Under the pieces are notes generated by a model, which was not told the DNA's origin, did not search any database, and saw nothing but the letters and a program-made list of their open reading frames with translations. From positions 1-58,588 of the IMG/VR virus record IMGVR_UViG_3300046167_000685: DNA of 58,588 bases, one strand, 5' to 3'. The DNA comes from a virus. The position numbers and the translations under genes were made by a program. Of this stretch, positions 1-58,588 are shown in pieces. Each line of letters begins with the position of its first letter. Positions within the stretch are counted from its first letter, which is position 1.

Positions 1-520
1 GCCCGGCCCCGGGCCTCGAGGACCGCGCCAAACGTACCGGACGCCGTGCAGCTCGATCGTAAAACCGGGCAAAACGGCCCGAAACCCCCGGAAACCGGGC
101 AATTCTCGAGCAGCTCGACGCACTAGGACACGGCGTACCGGCACGAGATCGACGAGAGACGGCCTTTCGTGCGGCGAAAATCGCTCAGCAGCGGGCCGAA
201 CCCCGGCCAGTGGCTTATAACTTTTTCGCTCTTTTTTGTGGTTTTTGCCAGAAATCGCCAAAAAACCGCAGAACCCGGTCCCGAAATCTGGAGCGAATTT
301 TCAGCAAAAAATCACGAATTGGCGGAAAACCGCCAGTTTTGCCAAAAAAAAACTAGGACCGGGTTGCACGATCCGCGCCCGCTGCTGAACAAAATCCGGC
401 GCACAGGTCGCCAGATCAGGCAGGGGCCCCGGCCTATCGGGTCAGATCGACCTGCCTCAATCATCGGGTCCCGCCCAACGTCGCGCCCGGCCCGCGGTGC
501 TGCCAGACGGGTGCTAGGGC
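1..520. repeat. Left copy of the 520-bp direct terminal repeat
   Basis: The 520 bases are identical, base for base, with the last 520 bases of the window (offset 58068). The repeat is GC-rich and shows no convincing gene. It holds a small perfect hairpin, TGGCGG-AAAA-CCGCCA at 320-335, and several A- and T-rich tracts between 220 and 355. Exact terminal redundancy of this length fits a phage with direct terminal repeats cut by terminase; it also fits a circular or circularly permuted molecule assembled past its start. Ends placed exactly at the repeat borders favour a complete genome. Confidence 0.95.
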
Positions 521-558
521 CATGTTTCTGACAAATAATCCTGTGAAAAACGATATAG

Positions 559-576
559 ATGTTTCACGTGAAACAT
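559..576. promoter_or_regulatory. parS: parS-like centromere site (perfect 18-bp palindrome)
   Basis: The core at 560-575 reads TGTTTCACGTGAAACA, which equals the consensus of bacterial chromosomal parS, the site bound by ParB (Spo0J). One further base on each side extends the palindrome to 18 bp. A chance exact 16-mer match in 58 kb is of order 1 in 100,000. No parA- or parB-like gene is visible in the window, so the natural reader would be the host ParB. Function in the phage is inference: segregation of a plasmid-like genome, recruitment of host ParB/SMC, or titration of ParB. Confidence 0.8.
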
Positions 577-594
577 TGCCTAATTATTAGGCAA
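576..594. promoter_or_regulatory. Second perfect palindrome next to the parS-like site
   Basis: TTGCCTAATTATTAGGCAA is a 9+1+9 perfect inverted repeat that shares one base with the preceding 18-bp palindrome. Its AT-rich centre and position 75 bases upstream of terL suggest an operator or a recognition site for a dimeric protein. I do not recognise the binding family. The whole spacer 521-668 is AT-richer than its flanks and holds no supported gene. Confidence 0.5.
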
Positions 595-39199: not shown

Positions 39200-40431
39200 T
39201 GAATTTTTTTGCAGATCGAATGAAAGATTTTGCTCAGGCCGTGCAGCCTACTCAGGTTAGCCAAGTAACACCCTCTGGTAATACGAGGTCTGGGCAAGGC
39301 CGCGGCGAAGACTCCCCGAGCGCGGCCAGAGATGACCGAATAGCTTTTGAAGAGTTTAAAAAAACGACGGGCCGCTCTGATAGAAACCCTTATGGTGATG
39401 CGGGTCTTTTTGGATCAAGTGCTGACTATAGCAACAACATGAGTCAGGGCCAGATCGATAGAGTAAACAGACAAGCATACAACCAGTATTTGGGGCTTGT
39501 ATCTGGTCGGGGCACCCAAAGGGGCGGGCAAGGTGATTTAATCCCCGGTTATGCCCCGGCTCTAAAACTTGGTTCAGAAACCCCTAGCGGAACAGTGGTC
39601 GCGGCACCTAACCAACCGGAACCGGCAATGGGCGGTATCCTTAACTTTCTGCCGGGTGTTGGTATGCTTCAACGCTTGTTTCAAGGGTCTAACACCCCTC
39701 GGGTGTTGGACGATGGCGGTGTAAATTACAGTACGGAGGGCATTGAAACCTTGATGTCCCCCTCCGCAGCTCCGGTGGAGACAAGCAACATTGCAAGGTC
39801 TCCAACTTTAGTCAGCGCACAGCCCAGAAAGAACAATAAGTTTACGATCCCGTTTAACTTAGACCAAGTTCTTAGGGATGTTCCTAAAAGCGGTATTGGT
39901 AGATTTATTGAACAAGGCCAAGAGGGATTTCAACTCGGTCCGGGACGTCTCCAACCTAACATAAATGATGGCCGCTTTGGGTTTACTTACAAGATACCTA
40001 TTGCTCAGAAAGTTGCGATGTCCAATCCAAACATACAATCTCCCGAATCCGTACAAGATATGTCCGACGAAGATTTTATGAATCGTCAAGAAAAGTTCGG
40101 AGAAGCATATGATTTTCGTAGAGATAGAATGATGAGACAGGCTCTTAGGGATAAATATTTTGAAGGTCAGTCGGATGTAGGGGTGTTCACCCCGCCTCCC
40201 TCCCCTCGACCTTCTTACAAGTCTCAAACTCTTTTAAGCGATAGAAGAGAAACTATGCCGGAACAGTACGGAGGTTTTGCTGACCCGTTAGTCGGAGGTA
40301 CTCTTTCTGAGCAGTTAAACCGACAAGCACAAAGTCAAGCATTACAAAATCAGCCTCTGCCCGACACCTATTCACCCCGTCGAGTAGCACGAGAGTCGCT
40401 TCTGTCTGGAAGACCTTTTCAAGGAATTTAA
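39199..40431 (+). CDS. Virion-module protein, unknown
   Basis: The 410-aa Gln/Gly/Pro/Arg-rich protein closes the rightward structural block. It is largely disordered in appearance, with a short hydrophobic piece near 145-160 (ILNFLPGVGMLQRLF). Its start overlaps the previous stop, and its 3' end overlaps by four bases the 3' end of the leftward helicase gene. Possibly another ejected protein. Confidence 0.55.
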   Translation: MNFFADRMKDFAQAVQPTQVSQVTPSGNTRSGQGRGEDSPSAARDDRIAFEEFKKTTGRSDRNPYGDAGLFGSSADYSNNMSQGQIDRVNRQAYNQYLGLVSGRGTQRGGQGDLIPGYAPALKLGSETPSGTVVAAPNQPEPAMGGILNFLPGVGMLQRLFQGSNTPRVLDDGGVNYSTEGIETLMSPSAAPVETSNIARSPTLVSAQPRKNNKFTIPFNLDQVLRDVPKSGIGRFIEQGQEGFQLGPGRLQPNINDGRFGFTYKIPIAQKVAMSNPNIQSPESVQDMSDEDFMNRQEKFGEAYDFRRDRMMRQALRDKYFEGQSDVGVFTPPPSPRPSYKSQTLLSDRRETMPEQYGGFADPLVGGTLSEQLNRQAQSQALQNQPLPDTYSPRRVARESLLSGRPFQGI

Positions 40432-41876
40432 ACTAACCAAGCCCTAGCCTTCTCGCCCAGCACCTGACCGGCGAGATTGATCTTGCCGCGTAGGGCTTTT
40501 AGGATCTTCTCGTCTATCGTGCCCGGCGATACCAGATCGATATATGTCACCTTGTTAGTCTGACTGATGCGGTGCGCCCGGTCCTCGGACTGTAAGCGCG
40601 TAGCAAGGTCATAGCTGTTGTTGTAGTAGATGACCGTATTAGCAGCAGTCAGCGTGATGCCCATACCGCCGGTCAACGGCTGGCCTACAAAGAAGCGCAG
40701 CTCGCTGTCCGGCTCTTGGAACCTGTCCACGATGGCCTGCCGCTCATCTTGTGGTGTGTCACCATAATAGGTTGCGACCGCTTCGGGCCCAAAGCGGTCG
40801 CGCAGGGCCGAAGCTATCTGTTGAATGCCGTGTGTATACGACGCCCAAATGATAGCTTTTCCCTGTAGCTCTTCTGTAATCTCCAGCAGCTCTTTCAGAC
40901 GATTGTTCTCGACGGGCTGTATCTCGCCCTCGTCCGGTTGCAAAAAACCACAGCATATCTGTTGTAGACGCATGATTTGCGTCAGGACGCTGGCAGTTGT
41001 AGCCAGCTCACCGTTTTCCAGCTTCGCCAGTGCCAGCTTCTTCATCTGACCGTACAGGCGCTTTTGTTCATCTGTTAGAGGCACGTCTCGCCGCGTGTAC
41101 AGCTTGTCTGGCAGGTCAAGGCAGTCCTCTTTCAGGACGCGGTTGCTAAACCGGTCCAGCCGCTCGTTGAGTTCATCAAGCCTGCGGTAGCCTACAATCT
41201 CTTGAAACGCCCGGTTGCCCATCTTACGGTTCTGAACAACGGCGTATCGGTTTTGGAAAGCAAAGTAACTCTTGAAGTTAAGCGCATCTTTAGACAGGAA
41301 GGCGCACTGGCTAAACAGGTCCATTGGGCTCTTAGTAATCGGCGAGCCGGTCAGGATGCGTTTGTACTTAGCGTAGTTTGACAACGTAAGAATATTCTTA
41401 GAGCGCGTTGCTTTACGATTTTTTATAGTCGTGCTCTCGTCTACAATCATCATGTTGTCCGGAAACTTTTGAAGAAAAGCAACCGCAGCTTTAGTTCCTC
41501 GCGACGTAGACAATGCCTCAACATTCATAACGAATATTCTCATCCCGCGGAACTCGCCAAACAGGAACTCCCACATCTCATCTTGGTATCTTTTTGTGAT
41601 GGCGGGCGTCCAACGCATGATCTGCCGGTCGATATGGTCTGGGAGATGTGTAGGTATTTCTCCTTTTACCCAGTTGTCATAGACGCCCTTCGGTGCCACT
41701 ATGAAGGCAGCATTGATCTTCTCCATCATGTGCAAGATGCCGATGGTATCAATAGCCACCTTGGACTTGCCTGTTCCCATCTCCATGAACAGCGCATAAT
41801 ACTCCGCGGCCCACGAATCTGTGAGTGCCTGCCTCTGGTGGTCAAACGGTTCAGTCTTGAACTTGTACTTTTTCAC
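40428..41876 (-). CDS. SNF2/DEAD-like helicase (superfamily 2)
   Basis: The gene reads leftward, 482 aa from a GTG start at 41876-41874 that has a perfect AAGGAGG seven bases upstream; reading further upstream in frame has no such support. Walker A is MGTGKS (residues 33-38), Walker B with DES appears in MIVDESTTIKN, then GSPITKSP, and motif VI is RAHRISQ, the pattern of SNF2 family ATPases. It may remodel or unwind DNA at replication forks. It is the only clear leftward gene of the window and has its own promoter. Confidence 0.88.
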   Translation of the reverse strand: MKKYKFKTEPFDHQRQALTDSWAAEYYALFMEMGTGKSKVAIDTIGILHMMEKINAAFIVAPKGVYDNWVKGEIPTHLPDHIDRQIMRWTPAITKRYQDEMWEFLFGEFRGMRIFVMNVEALSTSRGTKAAVAFLQKFPDNMMIVDESTTIKNRKATRSKNILTLSNYAKYKRILTGSPITKSPMDLFSQCAFLSKDALNFKSYFAFQNRYAVVQNRKMGNRAFQEIVGYRRLDELNERLDRFSNRVLKEDCLDLPDKLYTRRDVPLTDEQKRLYGQMKKLALAKLENGELATTASVLTQIMRLQQICCGFLQPDEGEIQPVENNRLKELLEITEELQGKAIIWASYTHGIQQIASALRDRFGPEAVATYYGDTPQDERQAIVDRFQEPDSELRFFVGQPLTGGMGITLTAANTVIYYNNSYDLATRLQSEDRAHRISQTNKVTYIDLVSPGTIDEKILKALRGKINLAGQVLGEKARAWLV

Positions 41877-41886
41877 GATTTCCTCC

Positions 41887-41927
41887 TTGACTATGCGAAA
41901 ATATAGGCATATATACAGGTCTGTCAA
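41887..41927. promoter_or_regulatory. Overlapping divergent sigma70-type promoters
   Basis: On the plus strand TTGACT (41887-41892), a 17-base spacer and TATATA (41910-41915) face the replication operon. On the minus strand TTGACA (41922-41927), a 16-base spacer and TATATT (41905-41900) face the SNF2 helicase. The two elements interleave, so polymerase at one should block the other. Both are close to consensus, fitting early transcription by host RNA polymerase. Confidence 0.75.
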
Positions 41928-41966
41928 GACCCGATAGGCGTCTTTAATCACGAAAGAGGAATCACG

Positions 41967-42563
41967 ATGAGCGATATCTTTGAAGCTATGGAGGAGGACT
42001 TCGAAAAGAAGTTGAACACCTCCGTCGAGAAGCTCGATCAGAGCGACTTGAGTAGCGTAGCCGGTCTGGCTAAAGCAATCCGTGAACAAGAGGACTTTGT
42101 TGCAAGTCTTGAGGGCGACCTCAAAGCTGCGAAAAAGAAGCTCCTTAAGATGACGGATGAAGAGCTCCCAACTATGTTGGCCGAGATTGGTCTATCCAGC
42201 TTCAAACTGGATGACGGTTCCGAGGTCACAGTCAAGCAAACATATGGTGCATCTATTACTAATGGCACTAACGGCACTGTGGACAACCGTCCGCAGGCTT
42301 ACGCATGGCTGCGTGACAACGGTCACGGCGATCTGGTCAAGAATGTCATCTCCTGTCAATTCGGTATGGGGGAAGACGAAAAAGCCGAGAAGTTCCGCAG
42401 AATTGCAGAACAGAGCGGTTACACGGCTGAGCAGAATACATCTGTTCACTCGTCAACTCTACGCGCCTTTGTTAAGGAGCGTTGTGAAGCTGGCGACGAG
42501 TTCCCTATGGAATTGTTTGGGGCCTACGTCGGACAGAAAGCCATAATCAAGAGGAGCAATTAA
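41967..42563 (+). CDS. First protein of the replication operon, unknown
   Basis: The 198-aa acidic protein has a helical, probably coiled-coil N-terminal half (residues 35-75) and a mixed C-terminal half. GAGGAA precedes its ATG. It stands just before the SSB-like gene and is common at this place in marine podoviruses in my recollection. No enzyme motif; a role as partner of recombination or SSB proteins is a guess. Confidence 0.6.
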   Translation: MSDIFEAMEEDFEKKLNTSVEKLDQSDLSSVAGLAKAIREQEDFVASLEGDLKAAKKKLLKMTDEELPTMLAEIGLSSFKLDDGSEVTVKQTYGASITNGTNGTVDNRPQAYAWLRDNGHGDLVKNVISCQFGMGEDEKAEKFRRIAEQSGYTAEQNTSVHSSTLRAFVKERCEAGDEFPMELFGAYVGQKAIIKRSN

Positions 42564-53478: not shown

Positions 53479-53522
53479 CTCTGTAAAAAGGATGGGAGTT
53501 GACCTTTTTAACTGAGGAAACG

Positions 53523-54155
53523 ATGGCGGCAAGAAAGAGAGCGTCGAAGCTTACTGGCAAACCCATGGAGACCCGGGGCCGTCCCCCGGTGACAGCACAA
53601 TCGGCTTTGACCCGAAAGCAGGAGCTTTTTGTCAAAGAGCTGGTCAGTAAGGACGGTCAGATAACTTTGAGAGAAGCAGCGGTCAACGCGGGTTACTCTG
53701 TTGGTTCCGCGCACACCCGAGCCTATGAGCTCACCAATCCACACATCTCGCCGCATGTTGTCGCTGCTATACAGGCTTATCGCAGAGAGCTAGATGAAAA
53801 GTATGGTGTGACCTACCAACGTCATCTACGGGACCTTCAACAGATACGGGACACTGCTTTGCAAAACGGGGCTTACTCTGCTGCCGTTCAGGCGGAATAT
53901 CGGCGAGGTCAGGCACAAGGGGACATTTATGTTAGCAAATCCGAGATTCGTCACGGCTCGATAGACAGCATGAGCAAGGACGAGGTTTTGAAAGCCCTCG
54001 AGGAGATTAAGAATAGTTATGCCCCGGTCACCATCAACATCACCCCAGAAGATGAAAATGCCTCCAATCGCGACAAAGCGAGAGGCAGGCTTTTACAAGC
54101 AAGTGAAGGAAGCAGCGCAGAGGTCGAGACGGAAGCTGCTTTTGACGAGGATTGA
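53523..54155 (+). CDS. terS: Terminase small subunit
   Basis: Start taken at the ATG at 53523 with GAGGAA before it; 210 aa. The N-terminal region LTRKQELFVKELV, AAVNAGYSVGSAHTRAYELT is the helix-turn-helix of the Terminase_2 family, which recognises packaging sites. The C-terminus is acidic. It lies 4.4 kb from the right end, so in a circular or concatemeric molecule it precedes terL by about 5 kb with the terminal repeat between them. Overlaps the next gene by about 100 bases. Confidence 0.82.
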   Translation: MAARKRASKLTGKPMETRGRPPVTAQSALTRKQELFVKELVSKDGQITLREAAVNAGYSVGSAHTRAYELTNPHISPHVVAAIQAYRRELDEKYGVTYQRHLRDLQQIRDTALQNGAYSAAVQAEYRRGQAQGDIYVSKSEIRHGSIDSMSKDEVLKALEEIKNSYAPVTINITPEDENASNRDKARGRLLQASEGSSAEVETEAAFDED

Positions 54156-58068: not shown

Positions 58069-58588
58069 GCCCGGCCCCGGGCCTCGAGGACCGCGCCAAA
58101 CGTACCGGACGCCGTGCAGCTCGATCGTAAAACCGGGCAAAACGGCCCGAAACCCCCGGAAACCGGGCAATTCTCGAGCAGCTCGACGCACTAGGACACG
58201 GCGTACCGGCACGAGATCGACGAGAGACGGCCTTTCGTGCGGCGAAAATCGCTCAGCAGCGGGCCGAACCCCGGCCAGTGGCTTATAACTTTTTCGCTCT
58301 TTTTTGTGGTTTTTGCCAGAAATCGCCAAAAAACCGCAGAACCCGGTCCCGAAATCTGGAGCGAATTTTCAGCAAAAAATCACGAATTGGCGGAAAACCG
58401 CCAGTTTTGCCAAAAAAAAACTAGGACCGGGTTGCACGATCCGCGCCCGCTGCTGAACAAAATCCGGCGCACAGGTCGCCAGATCAGGCAGGGGCCCCGG
58501 CCTATCGGGTCAGATCGACCTGCCTCAATCATCGGGTCCCGCCCAACGTCGCGCCCGGCCCGCGGTGCTGCCAGACGGGTGCTAGGGC
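58069..58588. repeat. Right copy of the 520-bp direct terminal repeat
   Basis: Identical to 1-520. The window ends exactly on its last base. No gene supported inside. Confidence 0.95.

Follow-up and report, generated by a model that had tools for sequence, protein, structure and literature searches.

A lone chromosomal-type parS site close to the genome terminus of a marine phage family, a candidate for recruitment of host ParB

Introduction

Chromosomal ParB binds the parS sequence and, once closed into a CTP clamp, spreads (PMC12704722), and parS sites are also where recruitment of SMC happens (PMC10197239). A chromosomal par operon together with one parS stabilises plasmids, heterologous hosts included (PMC7022226). 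Phage-plasmids, such as P1 and the extrachromosomal mycobacteriophages, possess their own parABS and are maintained as plasmids (PMC7157519); the genomic island SGI1 has parS-like sites but no parAB, and exploits the ParB of an IncC plasmid, its helper (PMC10954446).

Here we analyze a stretch of viral DNA of 58,588 nucleotides (the window, by which the whole stretch is meant), in which a preliminary description had pointed out a parS site. The sequence of this site is the same 16 bp as in the chromosomal (ParABS/Spo0J) systems, but it lies on a phage genome with terminal repeats and without parA or parB, beside the genome terminus, rather than on a bacterial chromosome near oriC and parAB. 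The phage-plasmids and the window family both carry a centromere-like site, but the latter encodes neither ParA nor ParB; because both genes were sought and not found, the system is not a phage-plasmid parABS. The ParB-Tls locus resembles the window in that a ParB-related function is found beside terminase genes, and differs in that a phage ParB-like protein is encoded there (PMC6536676) whereas the window contributes a DNA site only. By analogy, the window parS would work most like the parS-like sites of SGI1, given that both belong to mobile elements with parS and without parAB that (for the window, putatively) rely on the ParB of another replicon. However, SGI1 mimics a plasmid parS and borrows a plasmid ParB, whereas the window site is of the chromosomal type and its carrier is a phage without an integrase; moreover, binding has been demonstrated for SGI1, whereas for the window site it is predicted.

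With respect to the phage itself, the closest described viruses are the HTVC023P-type marine podoviruses (HTVC027P, HTVC023P, 023Pt), which have genomes of about 58-60 kb and, like the window, a PolA. The TerL of the window is 51-60% identical to those of HTVC027P, 023Pt_psg01, DSL-LC04 and HTVC023P; judged by this, by the PolA and capsid genes, each compared singly, and by the size of 58.6 kb, the phage may belong to the HTVC023P type or to a sister clade of it. The two differ in that 023Pt_psg01 has no parS at up to two mismatches and the match in HTVC027P is a coding coincidence.

Results

The window is a complete-looking phage genome of 58.6 kb. Its first 520 bases are identical to its last 520 and form a direct terminal repeat (left copy 1-520, GC 61%, at the left physical genome end; right copy 58069-58588). 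The inner edge of the left copy carries the conserved motif GGGC/CATGTTT (517-527, plus strand; slash, end of the repeat), the presumed terminase cut. The same boundary is present in the relative G004 (57,546 bp), whose exact terminal repeat of 301 bp ends GGGCC/ATGTTT, and the left ends of the two agree as well (AATCAT/GCC in the window, AATCATG/CC in G004); since these end sequences are shared, the termini of both contigs are very probably real and fixed. Between relatives, the repeats differ strongly in sequence and length (301 bp in G004 against 520 bp), whereas the end motifs AATCATG and GGGCCATGTTT are conserved. We also observed an internal motif ending in CTATCGGGTCA in the terminal repeat, about 100 bp ahead of the boundary, and a GGGGCCCC or GGGTCCCC box that recurs before terL (657-668 in the window, and in relatives, where it reads AGGGGCCCCCT) and within the terminal region.

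The large terminase subunit occupies two plus-strand ORFs, an N-terminal (ATPase) part at 669-1568 and a C-terminal nuclease part (Terminase_6C) at 1498-2115, which overlap in different frames at 1498-1568; the relative L179 has a single ORF of 481 aa, and the frameshift in the window probably reflects either a sequence error or a real break. The small subunit is encoded at 53499-54155 (plus strand). Other identified genes encode a portal, a capsid protein, an endolysin, a GroES-like protein, an AEP-TOTE primase-like protein, a UvrD-type helicase and PolA; several genes have no family assigned. Two further features listed in the preliminary description were recovered, namely a DUF932 gene, which matches above the Pfam cut-off, and a polymerase with leucine at the position equivalent to 762, the PolA motif reading RKQAKTINLGMMYG. 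The iterons listed alongside them were not: Tandem Repeats Finder reported no iteron-like array near the genome ends; short dispersed repeats are present at 56.8-57.8 kb. An SNF2-type helicase gene (40428-42089, minus strand) is apparently the sole large minus-strand gene of a genome that otherwise reads from the plus strand.

The site in question, TGTTTCACGTGAAACA at 560-575, is identical in 16 of 16 bases to the chromosomal parS consensus TGTTNCACGTGAAACA, as originally claimed, and sits at the centre of a perfect palindrome of 18 bp (559-576). It occurs once, the runner-up in the window being already three mismatches off, whereas the chance expectation of an exact 16-mer, at the length and composition of the window, is 1.2e-5 (order 0) to 2.1e-5 (order 1). 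Its assignment as parS rests on this match and on conservation in relatives. To assess the latter, we used 80 relatives gathered by TerL alone, a set that is hence unbiased for parS, and left four of them (L148, L159, L174, L190) out of the count as too truncated. Scanning relatives had been proposed as a check of the borrowing idea, with absence from close ones as the refuting outcome; this did not occur, as most have the site: the exact 16-mer is found between the genome terminus and terL in 62 of the 76 assessable relatives, and a copy with one mismatch in two more (L128, L168). The remaining 12 have no parS and not one of them has a decayed copy. In L163, L169, L171 and their kin (at least six records), parS and palindrome are cleanly missing with both flanks kept; the clean loss in this clade indicates that the site is not essential. 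Among family records of 21-60 kb, 14 of 15 have exactly one site and the fifteenth, that of L204, has two.

On a TerL DNA tree, the 16 parS columns of the 65 genomes with the main arrangement together underwent a single change, compared with a mean of 6.0 changes per flanking column and at least 29 changes in every other flanking stretch of 16 columns. The rows for this count were chosen at zero or one mismatch, which biases it downward, but this matters little because the unbiased TerL set contains nothing between one mismatch and absence. Thus, parS is under purifying selection as DNA, and its conservation is very strong. A 22-aa ORF at 522-590 that ends ...DVSRET... was considered and rejected, since the distance of parS from the terminus motif can be 40, 41 or 42 bp and the reading frame is not kept; the constraint is therefore on the DNA, and coding of the peptide VSRET is excluded for the window's family.

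The link to the boundary of the terminal repeat, which the preliminary description did not mention, is the most informative feature of the site. In the window, parS begins 39 bp inside the repeat boundary, and in all relatives of class A it starts 40-42 bp past the first base of the [GA]CCATGTT motif, whereas its distance to terL ranges from 72 to 1058 bp. In one clade, parS is separated from terL by a small-terminase gene, homologous to that at 53499-54155 of the window, and by a gene next to it, while the distance from parS to the terminus is unchanged. An operator at a fixed distance from terL was rejected on this variation. In the clades of class B (L183, L191, L201, L204, L097, L206 and others), parS occupies another place within the same terminal stretch, 66-113 bp away from the motif, and L204 and L097 have a second site there, TGTTCCACGTGGAACA, which is again parS-like. 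Changes of state between class A, class B and absence number at least six on the TerL tree. Repeated loss and relocation of an otherwise unchanged 16-mer within a single intergenic stretch fits the expectation for a protein-loading site that tolerates shifts in position.

Directly abutting parS, and sharing base 576 with its palindrome, is the perfect 19-bp odd palindrome TTGCCTAATTATTAGGCAA (576-594), present as initially described. Proposed as a partner element of parS, it fared poorly in the comparison: its columns show about 1-16 changes each on the TerL tree, against 0-1 for the parS columns, and many relatives that keep parS have it broken or missing. RNA folding of this region is also ordinary (z -0.65). 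Poor conservation and ordinary folding together rule it out as part of a parS module, and it is probably an element separate from parS.

Searches for partition genes returned no ParB_N (PF02195; 0 of 15 above cut-off), HTH_ParB (PF17762; 0 of 26) or ParA-type AAA_31 (PF13614; 0 of 11) in the window, nor any above cut-off in the relatives scanned whole, while control genomes match each model. No tyrosine integrase (PF00589) was found in the window, nor any above cut-off in the relatives scanned whole, again with matches in the control genomes. On both counts, the preliminary description, which reported neither par genes nor an integrase, holds. A phage DNA-binding protein beyond the reach of the Pfam ParB models is conceivable. 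Assignment of a host through genome bins was abandoned as unusable, the MAG bins being inconsistent and spread over many phyla; the SAR11 single-cell phage contigs found via those bins have no parS.

Lone parS sites recur among phages, on at least two occasions next to a terminase gene. The exact 16-mer was found in at least 120 IMG/VR stretches, compared with 11 and 9 for two control palindromes of similar make-up; we do not use this enrichment as a measure of function, as it is inflated by coding-only sites (a simple gene finder places 56 of the 120 matches listed in this group) and possibly by contigs of host origin. In GenBank phages, a 30-base parS query matched 350 records and a 33-base control palindrome query three, in records that are redundant and with part of the sites coding. 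By whole-genome scan, Roseobacter phage DSS3P8 and Butyrivibrio virus Arian each have three exact copies, and Roseobacter phage DSS3_MAL1, Lactobacillus phage Bacchae and Gordonia phage PatrickStar two each; the sites by which these five cultured phages were found are intergenic, and ParB_N was found in none of the five. Furthermore, an uncultured marine phage family (L017, L044, L053), with TerL about 27% identical to that of the window and 84-90% among its members, has 3-5 exact parS clustered near terL, and ParB_N was not found in these contigs either. A search of the open literature, which reached few subscription journals and no bioRxiv preprints, found no report of a lone host-type parS on phages, and priority is not established.

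Several exact matches lie within genes. In L067, L072, L121, L054, L043 and G018, the 16-mer is coding as VSRET, often after GGD, QD or QN and in different proteins; the sites of L067 and G018 were discarded as intergenic parS, being in a protein frame (DVSRET, DVSRGT). The second site of G018 reads DVSRGT and is parS-like in its DNA form, which hints at selection at the DNA level inside genes. HTVC027P was likewise discarded as a cultured carrier, since its CGTTTCACGTGAAACA is in the frame ...SPHQ-AFHVKHPNN... (read by eye), which is common to its relatives.

Discussion

The strong conservation of parS combined with the lack of phage parA and parB points to host ParB as the natural ligand. 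With moderate confidence, we propose from these sequence comparisons that the phage has borrowed a host centromere, onto which host ParB loads. Of the original suggestion, the part that concerns borrowing gains from a real, conserved parS without phage par genes, whereas the extrachromosomal persistence stage attached to it is not borne out: positive evidence for such a stage was not obtained, and the wider family has in HTVC027P a cultured representative for which an obligately lytic life is described (PMC12753301), although its own parS-like match is the coding one noted above. The missing tyrosine integrase is compatible with a plasmid-like prophage state yet is no evidence for one.

Following established ParB biology, host ParB would bind parS near the phage genome end, close as a CTP clamp and spread over the DNA close to the terminus, the leader of terL included. 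Less certainly, host ParA, the nucleoid and SMC might then treat the ParB-coated phage DNA as they would an additional origin region. Phage genomes, both on infection and during replication, could in this way stay attached to the nucleoid close to the origin domain of the host, and could be shared out if a slow-growing host divides before lysis. We take nucleoid tethering and sharing-out of phage genomes in a slow infection to be the most likely role of the recruited ParB; the latent period of HTVC027P is about 18 h (PMC12753301). Counting against this reading, one clade has cleanly lost the site, a purely lytic phage has little to gain from partition, and the close coupling of parS to the terminus suggests that it serves the ends or packaging rather than simple partition.

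The strongest rival, owing to the fixed spacing, is accordingly a function at the terminus, which we nevertheless consider somewhat unlikely: ParB near the concatemer junction would aid genome entry, circularisation or packaging, whether as a roadblock or marker for the terminase or as clamps on the first DNA to enter. This reading accommodates the constant distance from the terminus motif against a widely varying one from terL, the short distance between parS and a physical end in the two resolved genomes (559 bp in the window, 339 bp in G004), the clustered sites near terL in the unrelated family of L017, L044 and L053, and the phage ParB-like genes beside terminase genes at the ParB-Tls locus. 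Against it, the terminus motif is unchanged where parS is deleted (L163, L169, L171) or moved (L183, L191, L204), and no link to an end is established in DSS3P8, Bacchae or Arian.

Less probable again is control of transcription, in which ParB spreading would keep the late operon of terL silenced or insulated in the early phase of infection, to be titrated away later as phage copies accumulate. The site does lie in the terL leader, within ParB spreading range, and with P. aeruginosa ParB expression can drop when parS is placed beside a promoter (PMC7022226). However, the first downstream gene in the -1056 class is terS and not terL, the site of class B is elsewhere in the leader, and a convincing promoter was not detected at the site.

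That replicating parS copies act as a decoy, titrating ParB and SMC off the host chromosome and disturbing host segregation, is improbable. The number of copies would grow with phage replication, and the parS-like sites of SGI1 destabilise their helper plasmid by titration (PMC10954446), but a decoy would be expected to have several sites per genome, whereas the window's family keeps one, and titration needs no fixed place near the terminus. Many DNA-binding proteins of phages remain unassigned, as do several genes of the window, but an operator of a phage-encoded regulator that became parS-like by convergence is very improbable in view of the identity of all 16 bases to the chromosomal consensus, the additional parS-like sites of some relatives, the occurrence of an identical site in unrelated phages and the lack of fixed spacing to any gene.

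Returning to the borrowed centromere, a broader version can be offered tentatively, at a confidence below that for the window itself: recruitment of host ParB by a lone parS might be a general, overlooked strategy of phages without par genes, which, at a minimum in one marine family and in another unrelated to it, would act beside terL and the genome end, coupling host ParB and SMC to the entry, positioning or packaging of phage DNA. A parS that hardly varies within a large family of marine phages and turns up again in cultured phages unrelated to them would, if host ParB is recruited, mean that phages directly exploit the chromosome-segregation machinery of bacteria, and would link phage biology to ParB/SMC organisation. 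If this is true, parS provides a sequence tag that can be tested in lab-grown hosts, for example Ruegeria pomeroyi DSS-3, the tractable host of DSS3P8. In the Roseobacter-group phages DSS3P8 and DSS3_MAL1 (L384, L385), the two or three exact parS are clustered within a few kb, between genes.
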